NCBI RefSeq assembly: GCF_003664325.1
Contig: NZ_RCDA01000002.1
Coordinates: 62,001-126,000 of the forward strand
DNA length: 64,000 nt
Reading direction: 5' to 3'
Origin: Alkalispirillum mobile
GTDB lineage: Bacteria; Pseudomonadota; Gammaproteobacteria; Nitrococcales; Halorhodospiraceae
This document shows positions 1,549 to 44,860 of the stretch, one piece after another. Below the pieces are notes generated by a model. That model had not been told where the DNA came from, searched no databases, and was given only the letters and a program-made list of their open reading frames with translations. Every line of letters begins with the position of its first letter. Position 1 is the stretch's first letter. Made by a program: the position numbers and the translations under genes.

Positions 1549-3441
1549 TCAGGCCAACGGGTAGCGAAAGCGCAGGAAGCGCTGCGCGTTGCTGAGCACC
1601 TGGAAGGCGTCCTTGAGGTTGTGCCGCTCACTGTCGGAGAGGTTCTCCGGCTCGATGTAGTTATCCGGTGGGCGCTCGTCGTGGATGTCCGCCACCTGGT
1701 GGCGGATGCGGACCATGGAGATGAACTCGAAGGCGTAGCGCAGCTTGTCGCCCACGCCCCTGGGCAGCAGGGTCGTCTTGCTGATGTCGTCCAGCCGGTC
1801 GAAGGTGTTCTGGGCCGTGGAGCCGCAGGCCAGGGCGTGCACCCGCACCAGGTCCACCATGGGCGCGGTGCCCCGCCCCTTGATGTTGATGATCTTGTTT
1901 TGCTTGCCGTCCGTCTCCATGACGAAATCGCGCCAGAACCCCAGGGGCGGCGTGCGGTTCAGCGCATTGCGGGCGAGTGCCGCCAGGAAGCGCTCTTGGC
2001 GCGGAGCCAAGCTTGCCAGTAGTTCCTGTAGCTGCTCGACAAAGACTTCCTCCCCGTAGGCGCTGTCCAGGTCGAAAAAGATTGAGCTGTGCAGCAGGCG
2101 CTCGGCGTTGGGTTCCTGTATCCAGTCCCGGAAGTAGGCCTTCCACTGCTTGAGGGGCTGGCGCCACCGGGGGTTGGTGGCCATGATGCCGCCCTTGCAG
2201 TAGGTGTACCCCAACTCGGCCAGGCCGTCGGAGACCTGCTTTGCCAGTTCCGCGAAGTACTCGTCGTGCGCCTCGGGGTCGAAGCGGTCATCCAGGACCA
2301 GGGCGTTGTCCTGGTCGGTGACGATGGTCTGTTCATTGCGGGCCATCGAGCCCAGTACCATGAAGCAGTAGGGCACCGGGGGCGGGCCCAGCTGCTCCTC
2401 GGCCAGCTCCAGCAGGCGACGGGTGAAGCTGCGCCCGATGGCGGACTGGGCGCTGCCGATCATCTGGGAGTTTGCGCCCTCGCCCTCCATGCGCACGAAG
2501 GTCTCGCGGGCGTCACGGCGGAGCCGGGTCAGGTGCTTGGGGCTCTGGGCGCGGTAGATGCTGTCCACCAGGTAGAGGCTGCTGTGGGTCTCGTGCCGCA
2601 GGATGTCGGACAGGTGCAGCAGGCCCACCGGGCGACGCCGGTGCAGCACCGGCAGGTGGTGGATGTTGTTGCGAAGCATGCAGAGGGTGGCTTCCTGCAC
2701 GGTCTCGTCGGACTGGATGGTGATCAGGTCGGTGCTGGCCACCTGGCCTACCGGGGTCTCCGGCGGCAGTCCCTCGGCCACCACCCGGTTGCGGAAGTCG
2801 CTGTCGGTGATCAGCCCGACCAACCGGCGGCGACCCCCGTTGTAGGGCACCAGCAGCTGGTCCGGGTTGTCCTCCTCGGCGTCGCCCAGGATCAGCACCG
2901 AGGGGTTCTGCTCTTCGCGGATCAGCCTGGCCGCCTCCTGCACGCTGCTGTTCTCGTCCAGCAGGAGTGGGCTGCGCGCGATCAGTTTGCGGACCCGGGT
3001 GGTCAGGCTGGAGTGGTCGTGCTGCTTCTCCACCGTGGATTCCAGCCGCGGCTTCTCCAGTTCCACGAAATCGGCGAAGGTTTCGTCCGCATCGCACAGC
3101 CGCATGAAGGTCGCGCGCGGGACGTAGTAGATGAGCGTGTCCTCGATAGCCTTGGCCGGAAAGCGCACCCGCTGGTCGCGGAGCAGGGCGAAATGCCCGA
3201 AGATGTCGCCCTCGCCCAGGCGGTCGTAGAGCGTGCCGTTCCGCCGGGAGACATCCACTGCACCGCTGCGGATGTAGTGCAGGTCGTTGATCTCGCTGTC
3301 CAGCTCGAGGATGTCGCTGCCGGCCTTGAAGTAGGCCACCTCCACCGAGTCCGCCACCGAGTCCAGCAGCTCGTCGGAGAGGTTATCGAAGGGCGGGAAA
3401 CGCCCCATGTGTTGCCTGACTTCCAGGGATTCGATGTCCAT
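1549..3441 (-). CDS. cNMP-binding / CBS / DUF294 nucleotidyltransferase-like signalling protein
   Basis: The 630-residue protein has an N-terminal cyclic-nucleotide-binding (CAP_ED) domain (about 15-135), two CBS domains (about 160-285) and a DUF294 putative nucleotidyltransferase domain (about 310-455) with the GSMARNEQT...TDQDNAL signature, then a helical DUF294 C-terminal domain. The family resembles GlnD-type nucleotidyltransferases, and CBS pairs usually bind adenine nucleotides, so a cytoplasmic energy or second-messenger sensor is likely. The protein target is unknown. The exonuclease gene follows with a 9-bp gap. Members often sit beside acetate or osmolyte transporters, consistent with the BCCT neighbour. 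The domain assignment is firm; the biological role is inference. Confidence 0.85.
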   Translation of the reverse strand: MDIESLEVRQHMGRFPPFDNLSDELLDSVADSVEVAYFKAGSDILELDSEINDLHYIRSGAVDVSRRNGTLYDRLGEGDIFGHFALLRDQRVRFPAKAIEDTLIYYVPRATFMRLCDADETFADFVELEKPRLESTVEKQHDHSSLTTRVRKLIARSPLLLDENSSVQEAARLIREEQNPSVLILGDAEEDNPDQLLVPYNGGRRRLVGLITDSDFRNRVVAEGLPPETPVGQVASTDLITIQSDETVQEATLCMLRNNIHHLPVLHRRRPVGLLHLSDILRHETHSSLYLVDSIYRAQSPKHLTRLRRDARETFVRMEGEGANSQMIGSAQSAIGRSFTRRLLELAEEQLGPPPVPYCFMVLGSMARNEQTIVTDQDNALVLDDRFDPEAHDEYFAELAKQVSDGLAELGYTYCKGGIMATNPRWRQPLKQWKAYFRDWIQEPNAERLLHSSIFFDLDSAYGEEVFVEQLQELLASLAPRQERFLAALARNALNRTPPLGFWRDFVMETDGKQNKIINIKGRGTAPMVDLVRVHALACGSTAQNTFDRLDDISKTTLLPRGVGDKLRYAFEFISMVRIRHQVADIHDERPPDNYIEPENLSDSERHNLKDAFQVLSNAQRFLRFRYPLA

Positions 3442-3541
3442 CTATACCTGCCCCGGCTGTGCCCTGACAGCTTCAGTCTGCAGCCGGGGCTCGGGCGGTG
3501 TAAAGTTGAAGCCCGGCGCCCGGGCGTGCACGACAGCGCGA

Positions 3542-3570
3542 TTGACGACCCCCGGTCGGGCAGGTAGAAT
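3542..3570 (+). promoter_or_regulatory. Sigma-70 promoter for rplU-rpmA
   Basis: TTGACG (3542-3547) and TAGAAT (3565-3570) are separated by exactly 17 bp, about 120 bp before rplU. Each hexamer matches the consensus at five of six positions. This is the only good promoter I see in the 250-bp gap between the divergent DUF294 gene and rplU. Confidence 0.7.
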
Positions 3571-3692
3571 CCGCGCTCTTGAATCCGCTGCAGGCCGAAC
3601 CCCCTCCAGCAGAGGAGCCAGGCGGCCGGTCACTCGATCAGCGGAGTGGCAAGCGAACACCAGCCAACAGATTCACTAACGGAGAACGGGTC

Positions 3693-4007
3693 ATGTACGC
3701 CGTTATCAAGACCGGAGGCAAGCAGTACAAGGTCTCCGAGGGAGACGTCCTGCGTGTCGAGAAGCTCGCCGGTGAGCCGGGTGCTTCCGTGGAGTTCGAC
3801 CAGGTTCTGATGGTCGGCGAGGGCGACGACGTGAAAGTCGGCGCGCCCACCGTGGACGGCAGCAAGGTCACCGCTGAGGTGCTGGATCAGGGCCGTGCCC
3901 GCAAGATCGAGATCCAGAAGTTCAAGCGCCGCAAGCAGTATCGTCGCTTCGCCGGTCATCGGCAGCAGTTCACCGAGGTCAAGATCACCGGCATCGCCGC
4001 CGGCTGA
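3693..4007 (+). CDS. rplU: 50S ribosomal protein L21
   Basis: The 104-residue protein starts [18 protein letters not shown] and contains [10 protein letters not shown] and the [12 protein letters not shown] tail, diagnostic for L21. L21 binds 23S rRNA in the large subunit. An ATG with GGAG nine bases upstream was preferred over a further upstream in-frame ATG at 3579, because L21 begins at MYAVI. rpmA follows after 19 bp, the near-universal L21-L27-ObgE order. Confidence 0.98.
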
Positions 4008-4026
4008 TTCGGGAGGTTCAGCACTC

Positions 4027-4287
4027 ATGGCACATAAGAAGGCAGGCGGCAGCACTCGCAACGGCCGCGACTCAGAGAGTAAACGTCTTGGCGTGAAGCG
4101 CTTTGGCGGTCAGAACGTGCTGGCCGGCAACATCCTGGTGCGTCAGCGCGGTACCCATTTCCACCCCGGCGAGAACGTCGGTCTGGGCCATGACCACACC
4201 CTGTTCGCCAAGGCGGACGGCGAGGTGGTCTTCGAGCGCAAGGGTCCGCGCAACCGCCGCTACGTCAGCGTGCGCACCGTGCAGTAA
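4027..4287 (+). CDS. rpmA: 50S ribosomal protein L27
   Basis: This 86-residue protein has the L27 N-terminus [18 protein letters not shown] and the [10 protein letters not shown]...G.NVG.G.DHTLFA core. Its N-terminal tail reaches the peptidyl transferase centre. The tail begins directly at Ala-His-Lys, without the cleavable extension found in Firmicutes. It lies between rplU and obgE, and a hairpin downstream probably separates the ribosomal pair from the GTPase gene. Confidence 0.98.
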
Positions 4288-4328
4288 CGCCCCGCGCCTG
4301 GGCCGTCCGGCCCGCGTGAGTTATCGGA

Positions 4329-4357
4329 AAGCCTCGTGTGTGCGCACGGGGCTTTTC
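4329..4357 (+). terminator. Hairpin between rpmA and obgE
   Basis: A 10-bp stem (AAGCCTCGTG at 4329-4338 with CACGGGGCTT at 4345-4354, one G-U pair) is followed by a short T-rich tract. It looks like a leaky intrinsic terminator that would lower obgE-proB expression relative to rplU-rpmA. Confidence 0.6.
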
Positions 4358-4376: not shown

Positions 4377-6601
<2,225 letters not shown>

Positions 6602-39475: not shown

Positions 39476-39505
39476 GCTTTCGTTCTGGAACATGTGAAGC
39501 GGCTT

Positions 39506-39545
39506 GGCGGCACACGGAAAGAGAACCAGGTGCCGCCGTTTTTTT
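39506..39545 (+). terminator. Terminator-like hairpin in the TonB receptor leader
   Basis: GGCGGCAC (39506-39513) pairs perfectly with GTGCCGCC (39530-39537) across a 16-nt loop, followed by GTTTTTTT. It lies downstream of the Fur-like site and only 32 bp before the start codon, leaving little room for a promoter after it. It may therefore act as a transcription attenuator of the receptor gene. An ATGTGA start-stop pair precedes it at 39492. Confidence 0.65.
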
Positions 39546-39577
39546 GGCCGTGCAAGCACCTTTCTGAGGGGGGATTT

Positions 39578-41851
39578 ATGAGAACATTCAAGTTGCGCGT
39601 GGATCTGCCACTGGTAGCGGCGGCGGTTGCCATGACTTTCGGGGTTCAGGGGGTCAAGGCGGAAACCGAATCCAGTTCACGCCTACTGGACAGGATTACC
39701 ATCACGGGCGACCCGGATCGGATTCGTCCCGTGCCGGGGTCGGCCCAGTCGCTGGACCGGGAAGTGCTGGACCGCCACGGCTACTCCGACCCCCATCGCA
39801 TCCTGCGGGCGGTGCCGGGGGTCAATGTCGTCGAGGAGGAGGGCTACGGCCAGTTCCCCCATATCAGCATGCGCGGCACGCCGCCGGAACGGAACAGCCG
39901 GATCACGGTGATGGAGGACGGGGTGCTGGTCGCACCCGCACCTTATGCGGCACCGGCCGCCTACTACTTCCCCCCGATGGCGCGTATGGACCGGGTCGAG
40001 GTCCAGAAGGGCTCCAGCGCCATTCGCCACGGGCCTTATACCACCGGTGGCGCCATAAACATGTTGTCAACGCCTATCCCCGGTCAGACCAGCGGGCGGG
40101 CGGATGTGCTTTTCGGGTCCAACAACGGGCGGCGAATCCATGCCAATGTCGGTGATACCGTTGCATTGGGCGAAAGTGGCAACCAGTTCGGCTGGGTGCT
40201 GGAGGGGTTTTCTGAACAGTCCGACGGATTCAAACGGCTGGACAACCCGGCTTCCGGCCCGAACCAGCCTGATCTGGATACCGGCTTCGACCGTCGCAAC
40301 TTCATGACTAAACTGCGCTGGAACACCGACCCGGCAGCCGCTGTTTACCAGGAGTTGGAGTTCAAGTACGCCCGGGATGATCGTAGCATTGATGACACCT
40401 ATCTGGGCCTGACCCAGGAGGACTTCGATGCCAACCCGTTCCGCCGCTACGTGGGCTCGGCGCGCGATGAGATCAACACGGAGAACGAACTCTTTCAGCT
40501 GCGCCACTACATTACCCCGACGGCCAACACCGATTTGACCACCACGATTTACCGTACGGACACGGTGCGGAACTGGTACAAGCTCCATGAGGTCGATGGC
40601 GACGGTGACGGGAATTTCACCGGCATCTCGGCGATTCTTGACTACCCGGGGCAGTTCGCTGACGAGTTGGCCTGGGTGCGAGGCGAAAATACCCAGGGAC
40701 GCGGCGCGTTGCGCGCCAATAATCGTGAGTACTATGCACAGGGCATCGACCTGAAGGGCGGCTATTGGTTTGACACCGGCGCGTGGTCGCATGAACTGGA
40801 GGTGGGGGTCCGATACCACGAGGACGAAGAGGATCGCTATCAGTGGCATGATATCTATGCCGTCAGCGATCAGGGTGATCTCTTCCTCGACGAGCGCGAG
40901 CCGTTCGGGTCGAAGACCAACCGTCTGACAGAGGCGGATGCCATCGCCACCTACGCGCAGAACACCATGGTCCGGGGTCCGTGGCAGATTGCCGCCGGCC
41001 TGCGTTATGAGGACATCGAGATTCGGCGGCGCGACTGGGGCACGCCCCAGAGGAATTCTTCAAGCCTGGACCGGGATCGCTCCAACACTTACCGGGTCTG
41101 GATTCCCGGTTTGGGGGTGACCTATGACATCGACTCGAATTGGAGTGTGCTTGCCGGTGTGCACCGCGGGTTCGCGCCTGGCGGGGCCAGCCCGGACGAC
41201 AAGGAGGAGCGGAGCACCAACTATGAGGTGGGTTTCCGTTATAGCGGGCCGAACACGCGGTCCGAAGTGATCGCCTTCTTCAACGAGTACTCCAACATAA
41301 ACATCGAGTGCACGGCAGTGGGCGGCGGCTGCGGAGCCGCGGATATCGGGGATACGGTTTCCGCCGGCGAAGTCGACATCTATGGTCTGGAGGCGCTCCT
41401 GATCCACGATCTCGGTCGCTCCCAGGATCTGGGCATCAGCGTGCCGATCAGCCTCGGTTATACCTGGACTCAGAGCGAGTTCAAGCAGGATATCGGGGGT
41501 GATGCCCCGAATCAGTGGGCCAACGCGCGGCGGGGTGATTCCCTGCCGGAGGTGCCGGAGCACCAGATCAATGCGAGCATTGGACTGGCCCAGGAAGTGT
41601 GGCGCTTGACCCTGAATGCCAACTACGTCAATTCGGTCAATGCCAAGGCAGATCCGGCTTTGAGCAGCCAACGGATCGATTCCCGTCTGCTCTTCGATGT
41701 GTCCGGTGAATATCGGGTGCACGATAACGTGCGGCTCTTCGGGGCTGTGGAGAACCTGACCGACAAGGAGTATGTCGCGCACTATCGGCCGGCCGGCGCG
41801 CGGCCCGGCAAGCCGCGTGAGTTCTGGGCCGGGGTGAAAGTCGATTTCTGA
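39578..41851 (+). CDS. TonB-dependent outer-membrane receptor (FecA/siderophore type)
   Basis: The 757-residue protein has a signal peptide (about 1-28, ending GVKA). A plug domain (about 45-165) includes [28 protein letters not shown] and [28 protein letters not shown] 22-strand barrel follows, ending in Phe (FWAGVKVDF), as outer-membrane proteins do. Such receptors import iron chelates with TonB energy. The start at 39578 follows GAGGGGGG. No siderophore, exbBD or FecIR-like genes are adjacent and no FecR-interaction extension is visible, so it is an orphan. The ligand cannot be named. Confidence 0.92.
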
Positions 41852-41908: not shown

Positions 41909-41939
41909 GCCCCCGACAGGGATGGTCGGAGGCTTTTTT
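41909..41939 (+). terminator. Intrinsic terminator of TonB receptor gene
   Basis: GCCCCCGAC (41909-41917) pairs with GTCGGAGGC (41925-41933), one mismatch, with a 7-nt loop followed by six T. The group II intron begins two bases after the T-tract, so the stem probably served as its insertion target. Confidence 0.8.
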
Positions 41940-42533
41940 GGTGTGCGCCAGGCATGGCGCGCAGCGCCTTGAGTGGCGCTATTCCGGGGGCTGTGGTGGT
42001 TTCCGGATGACTTGGAGGTGCAAGTCCTCTACCGGCCCGGCAAGGGGAACGGTTAGCCGAACGGCAAGGGTGTCCATCGTGAGGTGGAATCTGAAGGAAG
42101 CCGAAGGCAAAGCACTGGTCCGACGAACAGGAATCGCATACGAGGCGACGGCAGTGGGTGAGAAGGCGTCTATCTTCAAAGCCCGGTACTTGCACGGGAG
42201 CTGTCGGCGTAGATGCGGCGGGCATAAGTGTGAAGGTCGCGCGCATTACCCTGGGAGGTCTGCACGCCTGCCACAGGCTAGCGCTGCTGCGAGGTGGCGT
42301 GATGGGTGCGCAGAAGTCAGCCGAGGCCATAGTAGGTGGGGTAACCGTCCACTGAAGGGCCGAACATGTGAGATGGATTGGGTGCCGGATCGCTCGATGG
42401 GGAGTGGAGTTGCAGACCGGGAGGCTGAGAGGCCTTTCCTTGCCTGGGGCGGTAGCGGGCGGAACCTGCGAGATAACCGGGACAAGGCGACAAGCCCTGC
42501 GGCGCGATCGGGGATGACCCATGAGGGGCCGAC

Positions 42534-43802
42534 ATGGGACTGATGTCGGCGGTACTGGAACGGAGCAATTTACACCGGGCCTATGACCGAGTGGTGCGCA
42601 ACAAGGGCGCCGCTGGCGTGGACGGGATGACGGTGGCCGAGTTCAAAGGCTACCTGAAGGTCCATTGGCCCGGGATCAGAGCGCAGTTGGAAGCGGGCCA
42701 CTACCGACCGGCCCCGGTGCGTAAGGTCGAGATCCCGAAACCGGGGGGCGGCCGCCGCATGCTGGGTATCCCGACGGTGCTGGACCGCTTTATCCAACAG
42801 GCCCTGCATCAGGTGCTGAGTCCCCTGTTTGAGGGGACGTTCTCGGAGCACAGCTACGGCTTTCGCCCGGGTCGGAGCGCAGGCCAGGCGGTCTGTGCGG
42901 CGCGCGGGCACATCGAAGAAGGCCGGCGCTGGGTGGTGGATGTGGACCTGGAGAAGTTCTTCGACCGGGTGAACCACGACGTGCTGATGGCGCGCGTGGC
43001 CCGGTGGGTGGACGACCGCCAGGTTCTGAGGTTGATCCGCCGCTACCTTCAGGCCGGGATCATGGAAGGCGGAGTGGCGACGGCACGCACGGAGGGGACG
43101 CCGCAAGGCGGTCCGCTCTCGCCGCTGCTGTCGAACATTCTGCTGACCGACCTGGACCGGGAACTGGAGCGCCGGGGCCACCGATTCTGCCGTTATGCCG
43201 ATGACTGCAACGTGTACGTGCATAGTCAGCGTGCGGGAGAGCGGGTGCTGGCCTCGATGACGCGCTTTCTGGAGCAACGGCTCCGGCTTCGCGTCAACCG
43301 CGAGAAGACCGCGGTGGACCGCCCCTGGAAACGGAGCTTTCTGGGCTACACCGTGTGCAACCGCAAACGCAACGTCCGCCTGAAGGTGGCGGCCAAGCCG
43401 GTGGAACGGCTCAAGGCCAGCGTCAAGGCGGTGTTCCGACGCGGTCGCGGATGCTCTCTACGGCGCACCATTGCCGAGCTGGCGCCGAAGCTGCGGGGGT
43501 GGTTGAACTACCTCCGCCATGCCGGGGTGAAGCGCGTCTTCGAGGAACTGGATGGGTGGATCCGCCGGCACCTGCGCAAGCTACTATGGCGGCAATGGAA
43601 ACGCCCGCGCCGTCGGGCGGTGATGCTCATGCGCCTGGGACTGGGTGAGGAGCGAGCCTGGCGCAGCGCCACCAACGGACGCGGTCCGTGGTGGAATGCC
43701 GGGGCCTCGCACATGAACCAGGCGCTGCCCAAAAAGCGCTTTGATCGGCTTCAACTGGTATCGCTGATGGATCATCACCATCGGCTCAAGTATCTTGCGT
43801 GA
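42534..43802 (+). CDS. ltrA: Group II intron reverse transcriptase/maturase
   Basis: The 422-residue protein has RT blocks typical of LtrA-like enzymes: [50 protein letters not shown], and the catalytic YADD at 221-224. The group II maturase (X) domain includes [30 protein letters not shown] (about 318-348). There is no HNH endonuclease domain, as usual for class C. The ATG at 42534 follows GAGGGG; an alternative ATG is at 42543. The frame is uninterrupted, so the intron may be splicing-competent and mobile. Confidence 0.95.
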
Positions 43803-43874
43803 ACCGCCGTGGTACGGAACCGTTCGCCCGGTGGTGTGAGAGGACGGGGGAGGCAACTCCCCCTCCTACTCGAT
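43801..43874 (+). ncRNA. Group II intron domains V and VI
   Basis: Just after the RT gene, GAACCGCCGTGGTACGG...CCCGGTGGTGTGAGAGG (43801-43842) forms the conserved domain V hairpin. A GGGGGAG/CTCCCCC stem (43846-43866 region) forms domain VI with the branch-point region before the 3' splice site. Domain V overlaps the RT stop codon by two bases. Confidence 0.85.
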
Positions 43875-43937: not shown

Positions 43938-44405
43938 GTGGCGCAGGACGTCAAAACCGCTGACATGCTCCAGATGGCGCGGGAGTTCTTCCAGCTACTG
44001 CCTCATGGGCGGTTGCTCGGCATTGAGGTCCGCCAGGCTGACGCCGAGCGCGTACAGACACGGCTCGCCTATCGCGACGACCTGGTGGGGGATCCGCAGG
44101 GCGGCCATCTCCACGGCGGCGTCATCACCACGCTGATCGACCAGACCAGTGGTTCGGCGGTGCTCTGCCGGCTCGGCCGGCTGGAGGCCGTGGCCACCCT
44201 GGACCTGCGCGTGGATCACCTGGCCCGGGCCCGGCCTGGCCAGGCCGTGGTGGCGGAGGCGGAGTGCTACCGCGTGACCCCCAACATCTGCTTTGCGCGT
44301 TGCACGGTGTTCCCGGAAGGCGAGCGGGCCCGGCCCGTCGCTGCCAGCATGAGTAGCTTCATGCGCACGGGGCAGGTGCCTGGTTTCGTGGAGGGCAGCC
44401 GGTGA
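43938..44405 (+). CDS. PaaI-type hotdog thioesterase (copy 1)
   Basis: The 155-residue hotdog-fold protein has the PaaI-like motif GDPQGGHLHGGVITTLIDQTSG, with the HGG turn and an Asp in the catalytic helix. Such enzymes hydrolyse acyl-CoA esters, often as tetramers. The start is GTG at 43938; the upstream gap holds the end of the intron. The second thioesterase gene overlaps its stop by four bases (GTGA), so the two are translationally coupled. The substrate is unknown. Confidence 0.88.
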   Translation: MAQDVKTADMLQMAREFFQLLPHGRLLGIEVRQADAERVQTRLAYRDDLVGDPQGGHLHGGVITTLIDQTSGSAVLCRLGRLEAVATLDLRVDHLARARPGQAVVAEAECYRVTPNICFARCTVFPEGERARPVAASMSSFMRTGQVPGFVEGSR

Positions 44406-44860
44406 GTGCAGAGCCCATCGAATCAAGGTTCCGGGCGTTACAGGCCGCCATTGAGCAATGGCCTTACGCGGCGTTGATCGGCATGCAGCCATTGCTGCAC
44501 GACGAGGGCCTGCAGTTCCGGCTGGCTTATCGCGAGGAGTTGATCGGCAATCCGGCATTGCCGGCGATTCACGGCGGCGTGCTGGGCGGTTTCATGGAGC
44601 TGTCGGCGCAGGCACAGATCCTTTGGGAGGCGGACTGTCAGCTGGCGGCCCTGCCCCGGGTAGTGGACTTTTCCATCGACTACCTGCGCCCGGGCAGGCC
44701 GGAGGATGTCATGGGGGACTGCCGGGTCTGGCGTCAGGGCCAGCGGGTGGCCAACATTGCGGTGGCCGCCTGGCAAGGGGATCCGGACCGGATCATCGCC
44801 ACGGCCCGCGGGCATTTCCTGATGCCCGAGGCCGAGGCCGGGGCCGTCGGTGCCCGGTAG
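44402..44860 (+). CDS. PaaI-type hotdog thioesterase-like protein (copy 2)
   Basis: The 152-residue paralogue of the preceding gene keeps the hotdog motif AIHGGVLGGFMELSAQAQ. It has Glu where copy 1 has Asp in the catalytic helix, a substitution also seen in some 4-hydroxybenzoyl-CoA thioesterase-like enzymes. Start GTG at 44402 overlaps the stop of copy 1. Tandem coupled paralogues suggest a hetero-oligomer, which is inference. Confidence 0.85.
   Translation: MSAEPIESRFRALQAAIEQWPYAALIGMQPLLHDEGLQFRLAYREELIGNPALPAIHGGVLGGFMELSAQAQILWEADCQLAALPRVVDFSIDYLRPGRPEDVMGDCRVWRQGQRVANIAVAAWQGDPDRIIATARGHFLMPEAEAGAVGAR

Follow-up and report, generated by a model that had tools for sequence, protein, structure and literature searches.

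Alkalispirillum mobile carries a full-length class C (IIC) group II intron of 1932 nt, located on the forward strand at positions 41943-43874 of the window (the whole stretch of 64,000 nucleotides analysed here), directly behind a terminator-like hairpin that follows a gene for a TonB-dependent receptor. The preliminary description of this element was right in substance. Since terminators are a known target of class C introns, the insertion site is ordinary and is a further instance of a well-recorded habit of the class. Of more lasting interest is the intron's domain V, a variant form of the most strongly conserved segment of a group II intron. In our best explanation, which we hold to be very probably correct, a class C intron reached the lineage by horizontal transfer and reverse-spliced into place behind the receptor hairpin, guided by this hairpin and by the EBS1-IBS1 pairing.

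The intron begins with GTGCG and ends with CGAT, and all its parts lie on the forward strand. Two Rfam blocks of the D1D4 type, which cover domains I-IV, were found at 42073-42244 (the domain I block, group-II-D1D4-3, 141.6 bits) and at 42278-42360 (group-II-D1D4-1, 64.8 bits); the second contains AGC at 42319-42321, which by our own reading is J2/3. EBS1 (GTCTA, 42168-42172) occupies a hairpin loop of domain I, as judged from an alignment of 70 loci and a pairing test, and IBS1 (TTGGT, 41938-41942) forms the final five bases of the 5' exon, a placement derived from the pairing register over 69 distinct loci. An open reading frame at 42534-43802 encodes a reverse transcriptase (RT)/maturase of 422 amino acids with a YADD motif and no stop codon across its length. 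Domain V extends from 43803 to 43835 according to fold prediction, comparison with other domain Vs and our own covariance model R2, and domain VI from 43837 to 43872 according to predicted fold and R2, with a bulged branch-site A at 43868, the seventh base counted from the intron 3' end. The GUGYG 5' end, the AY 3' end and the bulged A in domain VI are thus all present. The domain I block, uninterrupted YADD reverse transcriptase and domains V and VI that had been reported for this element are confirmed by the Rfam blocks, the reading frame, RF00029 (29.6 bits) and R2 (89.3 bits), and the RNA has a standard layout as far as its predicted fold goes, with the protein part open.

The ends were placed by comparison with relatives. 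Genome contigs scanned with the RT gave at least 578 relatives, of which the best 80 were kept; with seven loci of one genome of the same order and the A. mobile intron itself, 88 sequences were examined. Searching these with the pattern GTG[CT]G placed the 5' end in 70, the other 18 being dropped because the sequence was incomplete or the pattern absent. The start is GTGCG at 69 of the 70 loci and GTGTG at one. A second reading two bases earlier is possible at 14 loci, the A. mobile intron included; there the later reading was taken, and our covariance models, built from 20 (R1) and 25 (R2) relatives with the A. mobile intron excluded, inherit this choice. The common start is therefore partly built in, both through the GTG[CT]G pattern and through the preference for the later reading. 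The 56 loci with a single reading, and the empty site described below, are independent of that choice. R1 puts the 5' end at 41943 (83.2 bits) and R2, whose match covers 43802-43874, puts the 3' end at 43874 (89.3 bits).

The preliminary description had the intron start at 41941 with GTGTG. This does not hold: with that start EBS1 would form one Watson-Crick pair of five, as against two plus two G-U pairs with a start at 41943, R1 selects 41943, and an empty plasmid site does not contain the register two bases earlier. Alignment, covariance model, pairing and empty site all favour GTGCG at 41943. A covariance model that moved the 5' end had been named as grounds for rejecting the original reading; the end did move, by two bases only, while the class assignment stands, as does the 3' end at 43874, on which R2 and RF00029 agree.

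The empty site comes from the closest relative found, a class C intron of IncC plasmids whose RT (WP_082261857.1) is 75.5% identical to that of A. mobile. Five plasmid records show this identity, and the three inspected were typed as IncC. Hosts include Serratia marcescens (p11663) and Citrobacter freundii (p50935_IncC), and the intron occupies the same place in Klebsiella pneumoniae KP38731. It is 82.7% identical to the A. mobile intron over intron bases 1-444, shares the GTGCG start and the CTACTCGAT end, and likewise stands behind a stem and T tract; its domain V differs, with the usual 30-letter core and an AC bulge. A plasmid search with 3301 bases around this intron returned 995 records, four of which cover at least 80% of the query. 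Among the 20 matches listed, 16 align end-to-end in two or three pieces covering 41-42% of the query and thus lack the intron. The E. coli plasmid p1540-2 has the two flanks directly joined, and the point of junction corresponds exactly to an intron that starts with GTGCG and finishes with CTACTCGAT; the register two bases earlier does not occur there. The IncC intron (2405-4334 of locus L139) is located between genes for an Ig-like and a DsbC-family protein, and intron-free versions of this arrangement exist in many plasmids.

Assignment to class C, as first proposed, is supported by the RT, the class being set here by scores against solved structures. The best match is the GsI-IIC RT (6ar1, named IIC in its record), with 465 bits over RT residues 1-418, a likeness assessed at the protein level only. 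It is followed by 7uim (379 bits), which we take to be a IIC enzyme, and at a wide distance by 6me0 (135 bits), presumably a IIB enzyme, and by LtrA (5g2x, 123 bits). NCBIfam places the protein among the group II intron reverse transcriptases/maturases (420.6 bits, cut-off 300). A Pfam search of the 422 residues found RVT_1 and GIIM only, and no endonuclease domain. This last feature would also suit a member of class D, E or F, since the available part of PMC4424553 describes all four classes, C, D, E and F, as lacking that domain. Such an origin nevertheless seems extremely improbable, as the highest-scoring solved structure belongs to a IIC RT, far above the non-IIC ones, the insertion is targeted to a terminator, and the domain V triad, CGC at 43805-43807, is that of the IIC intron of Oceanobacillus iheyensis in the text seen of PMC7275048.

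The target hairpin lies at 41909-41939, behind the TonB-receptor gene. Its stem comprises nine positions (41909-41917 with 41925-41933), eight of them paired and one a C.A mismatch, around a 7-nt loop, and is followed by T6. A simple terminator scan of 3 kb found two terminator-like sites, with the 5-bp core of this hairpin among them, against 1.6 expected in shuffled sequence. As the scan is at chance level, we base the terminator claim on a comparison of insertion sites instead. Control windows, 345 in number, were taken from the same loci, and at 68 of the 70 sites (all but L007 and L042) the hairpin score exceeds their 95th percentile, although the sites include several copies from one genome and are thus not independent. 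The A. mobile hairpin, with a score of 22, is the fifth weakest of the 70, between the control 95th percentile of 19 and the median site at 28. The siting immediately after a rho-independent terminator, part of the original reading, is therefore upheld by the hairpin and T6 directly upstream and by the comparison of sites. Insertion of class C introns behind terminators is in print (PMC4424553 and PMC8919778, both from partial text). The available part of PMC4424553 also mentions class C introns that use attC sites, and an intron of that kind could lie behind a hairpin by chance. We find this very improbable, given that the site consists of a stem and then T6 and that the closest relative found, between its Ig-like and DsbC-family genes in IncC plasmids, stands behind a stem and T tract too.

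EBS1 supports the junction across the relatives. Over 69 distinct loci it forms on average 4.01 Watson-Crick pairs of five with the bases immediately before the junction, against means of 1.07-2.74 in 12 other registers; the exceptions are L029 (0 of 5) and L004 (1 of 5). Compared with this locus mean, the A. mobile pairing of GTCTA with TTGGT is weak, with two Watson-Crick and two G-U pairs of five, the wobbles falling at positions -1 and -2. When 50 distinct EBS1/exon pairs are compared, 45 have a Watson-Crick pair at position -1 and four a mismatch, A. mobile being alone with a G-U there; at -2 a G-U occurs in two, one of them A. mobile. Near position 1885 of L029, an intron end CTACCCGAT is followed directly by another intron start GTGCG, either a head-to-tail pair or an assembly artefact.

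Neither neighbouring gene is interrupted. The TonB-dependent receptor gene upstream occupies 39494-41851 (forward strand; Pfam matches over 39572-41848 to PF00593, 121.3 bits, and PF07715, 59.4 bits), and a thioesterase-superfamily gene follows downstream at 43938-44405 (forward strand; PF03061, 53.8 bits). The suggestion that the intron is retained where no gene is broken agrees with what PMC8919778, in the portion available, says of class C introns. The downstream gene overlaps a second small gene at 44402-44860; both have thioesterase-superfamily matches, and two adjoining matches of this kind also occur in five genomes of the same family. A syntenic empty site sought in the genomes of relatives was not found: in two of them (G001 and G006) the upstream gene has its homologue far from that of the downstream gene, and at four loci (L113, L114, L115 and L117) there was no intron start within 150 bases behind the receptor homologue.

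The intron is sparsely distributed, which fits its horizontal entry. The A. mobile genome contains a single RT match, and with one copy only no mobility is visible there. At E<=1e-60 the RT found nothing in 11 genomes of the same family, five of which are 77-83% complete, and matched one of 58 relatives, G038, where seven copies show 65% identity. The exact domain V pattern was present in two of 369 genomes drawn from the class, including that of A. mobile, and no viral contig matched it exactly; a phage collection yielded five records at E<=1e-60, all below 60% RT identity. Two G038 copies (L085 and L086, at 1730425 and 1732537 of contig C1) are 2112 bases apart and have the same 45 upstream bases, as would result if the intron had been duplicated in tandem along with its hairpin. 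At a Thermoanaerobacter wiegelii locus (L076), a purine riboswitch (4431-4532, 87.4 bits) lies shortly downstream of a class C intron, and a tRNA upstream at 2289-2362.

Domain V is where the A. mobile intron departs from most of its relatives. We looked for this domain in 91 sequences and found it in 82, some genomes contributing more than one copy; the nine others include cases beyond the strand or distance searched. The core has 30 letters in most relatives and 31 in A. mobile; among the 82, nine have 31 letters and one has 32. The additional letter is predicted to be a bulged U (43810), so that the helix below the catalytic bulge keeps the ten pairs of the usual form. A different fold was predicted for L008, L023 and L025, which have the extra letter, and for L012, which does not. 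The two-nucleotide catalytic bulge is AY in 79 of the 82 sequences, UU in L003 and L018, and UC (43824-43825) in A. mobile only, which thereby deviates from the AY consensus. In the group IIC intron of O. iheyensis, compared from the portions of published text available (PMC7275048, PMC3669008), the CGC triad, a two-nucleotide bulge and J2/3 are shared, whereas the bulge is A376-C377 instead of UC. The initial characterization of the element as apparently intact is thus borne out for the open RT and the domain layout and not clearly for the ribozyme active site, which departs from consensus in its extra U and UC bulge. We found no paper on an altered bulge or a longer domain V in class C introns among the titles and abstract openings searched, which cover subscription journals poorly.

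A defect peculiar to the A. mobile copy does not account for the extra nucleotide, since eight other domain Vs share it. In the RT tree, A. mobile groups with Aliidiomarina maris (L002) and isolates NORP350 (L003) and C1.bin.33 (L004) with 100/100 support. All three have an RT 68-71% identical to that of A. mobile and the extra domain V nucleotide, with bulges AU, UU and AU, respectively, in place of UC. More widely, the extra nucleotide was found in introns on contigs labelled as five phyla, and it does not define a single clade. The first RT tree requires five changes for the eight labelled rows, although its well-supported branches force only one and 2 of 500 shuffles were as low; a quick tree that also contains the IncC intron requires six, with two forced and 28 of 500 shuffles as low. 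Holding the introns with the extra nucleotide together as one clade costs 65.26 log-likelihood units (p-AU 0.0144). The nucleotide was thus gained or lost more than once, or swapped between introns: repeated gain, repeated loss (one gain followed by several losses) or domain exchange may each explain the pattern.

Copies with the extra nucleotide occur at more than one site in each of two genomes. In Aliidiomarina maris, two such copies stand behind different hairpins and are identical at 1839 of 1987 aligned columns; these copies, L132 and L133, differ in length (1986 and 1923 nt). The genome of L025 has four pattern matches, and of the three inspected, two share a 3' end and are followed by different sequence, and the third stops at a contig edge. 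The extra nucleotide is thus compatible with past mobility. Two intron copies in Acanthopleuribacter pedis (L134 and L135), on different contigs, are identical, as are the flanks compared, and are therefore uninformative on mobility; they could represent a larger duplication or a redundant assembly. None of the copies in these three genomes has U at the first bulge position, so the compatibility with mobility extends to the extra nucleotide and not to the UC bulge.

Is the A. mobile intron still active? If it splices, a lariat route would have the bulged A at 43868 act on the 5' junction (41942/41943) with the encoded protein helping, and the predicted ligated junction 41942/43875 would read TTTTTTGGT/TCCGGG. 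Hydrolysis is otherwise the main splicing pathway of group IIC introns, according to the text available of PMC7161350. The UC bulge and the wobbles at -1 and -2 make activity doubtful. The same element could be a crippled copy, with an open RT and a ribozyme whose activity was largely lost through the changed bulge and the weak EBS1-IBS1 pairing. Its unique UC bulge against AY in 79 of 82 domain Vs, the sole G-U at -1 and one of the two at -2 among the 50 distinct pairs, and its single copy in the genome are in keeping with such a loss, to which we give appreciable weight, somewhat short of an even chance. Set against it are an RT with no stop across 422 residues, a predicted domain V fold that is usual apart from the extra base, and the presence of U at the first bulge position in L003 and in L018, whose EBS1 pairs with the exon at 5 of 5 positions. 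On balance we lean slightly towards an RNA that is still catalytically competent.

The variant form of domain V also affects how such introns are detected. RF00029 matches A. mobile end to end at 43802-43874 in an 86-base search, with 29.6 bits, below its gathering score of 40; in a 2201-base search the match was missed at E<=1. The A. mobile score would pass the threshold of 24 bits used in the survey of PMC8919778, as given in the part of that paper available. Across 19 loci, the gathering score was reached by 10 of 12 introns with a usual domain V (L014 and L083 being missed) and by none of the seven with the extra nucleotide. Surveys relying on that score could therefore lose such introns. 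It is conceivable, though we think it unlikely, that the A. mobile intron and its relatives retain ribozyme activity with a remodelled domain V, containing an extra bulged U in the lower helix and, in three of them, U in place of the bulge A. Were this true, domain V would be able to absorb one additional nucleotide as well as a change in its metal-binding bulge, and the Rfam gathering score would be overlooking introns of this kind.
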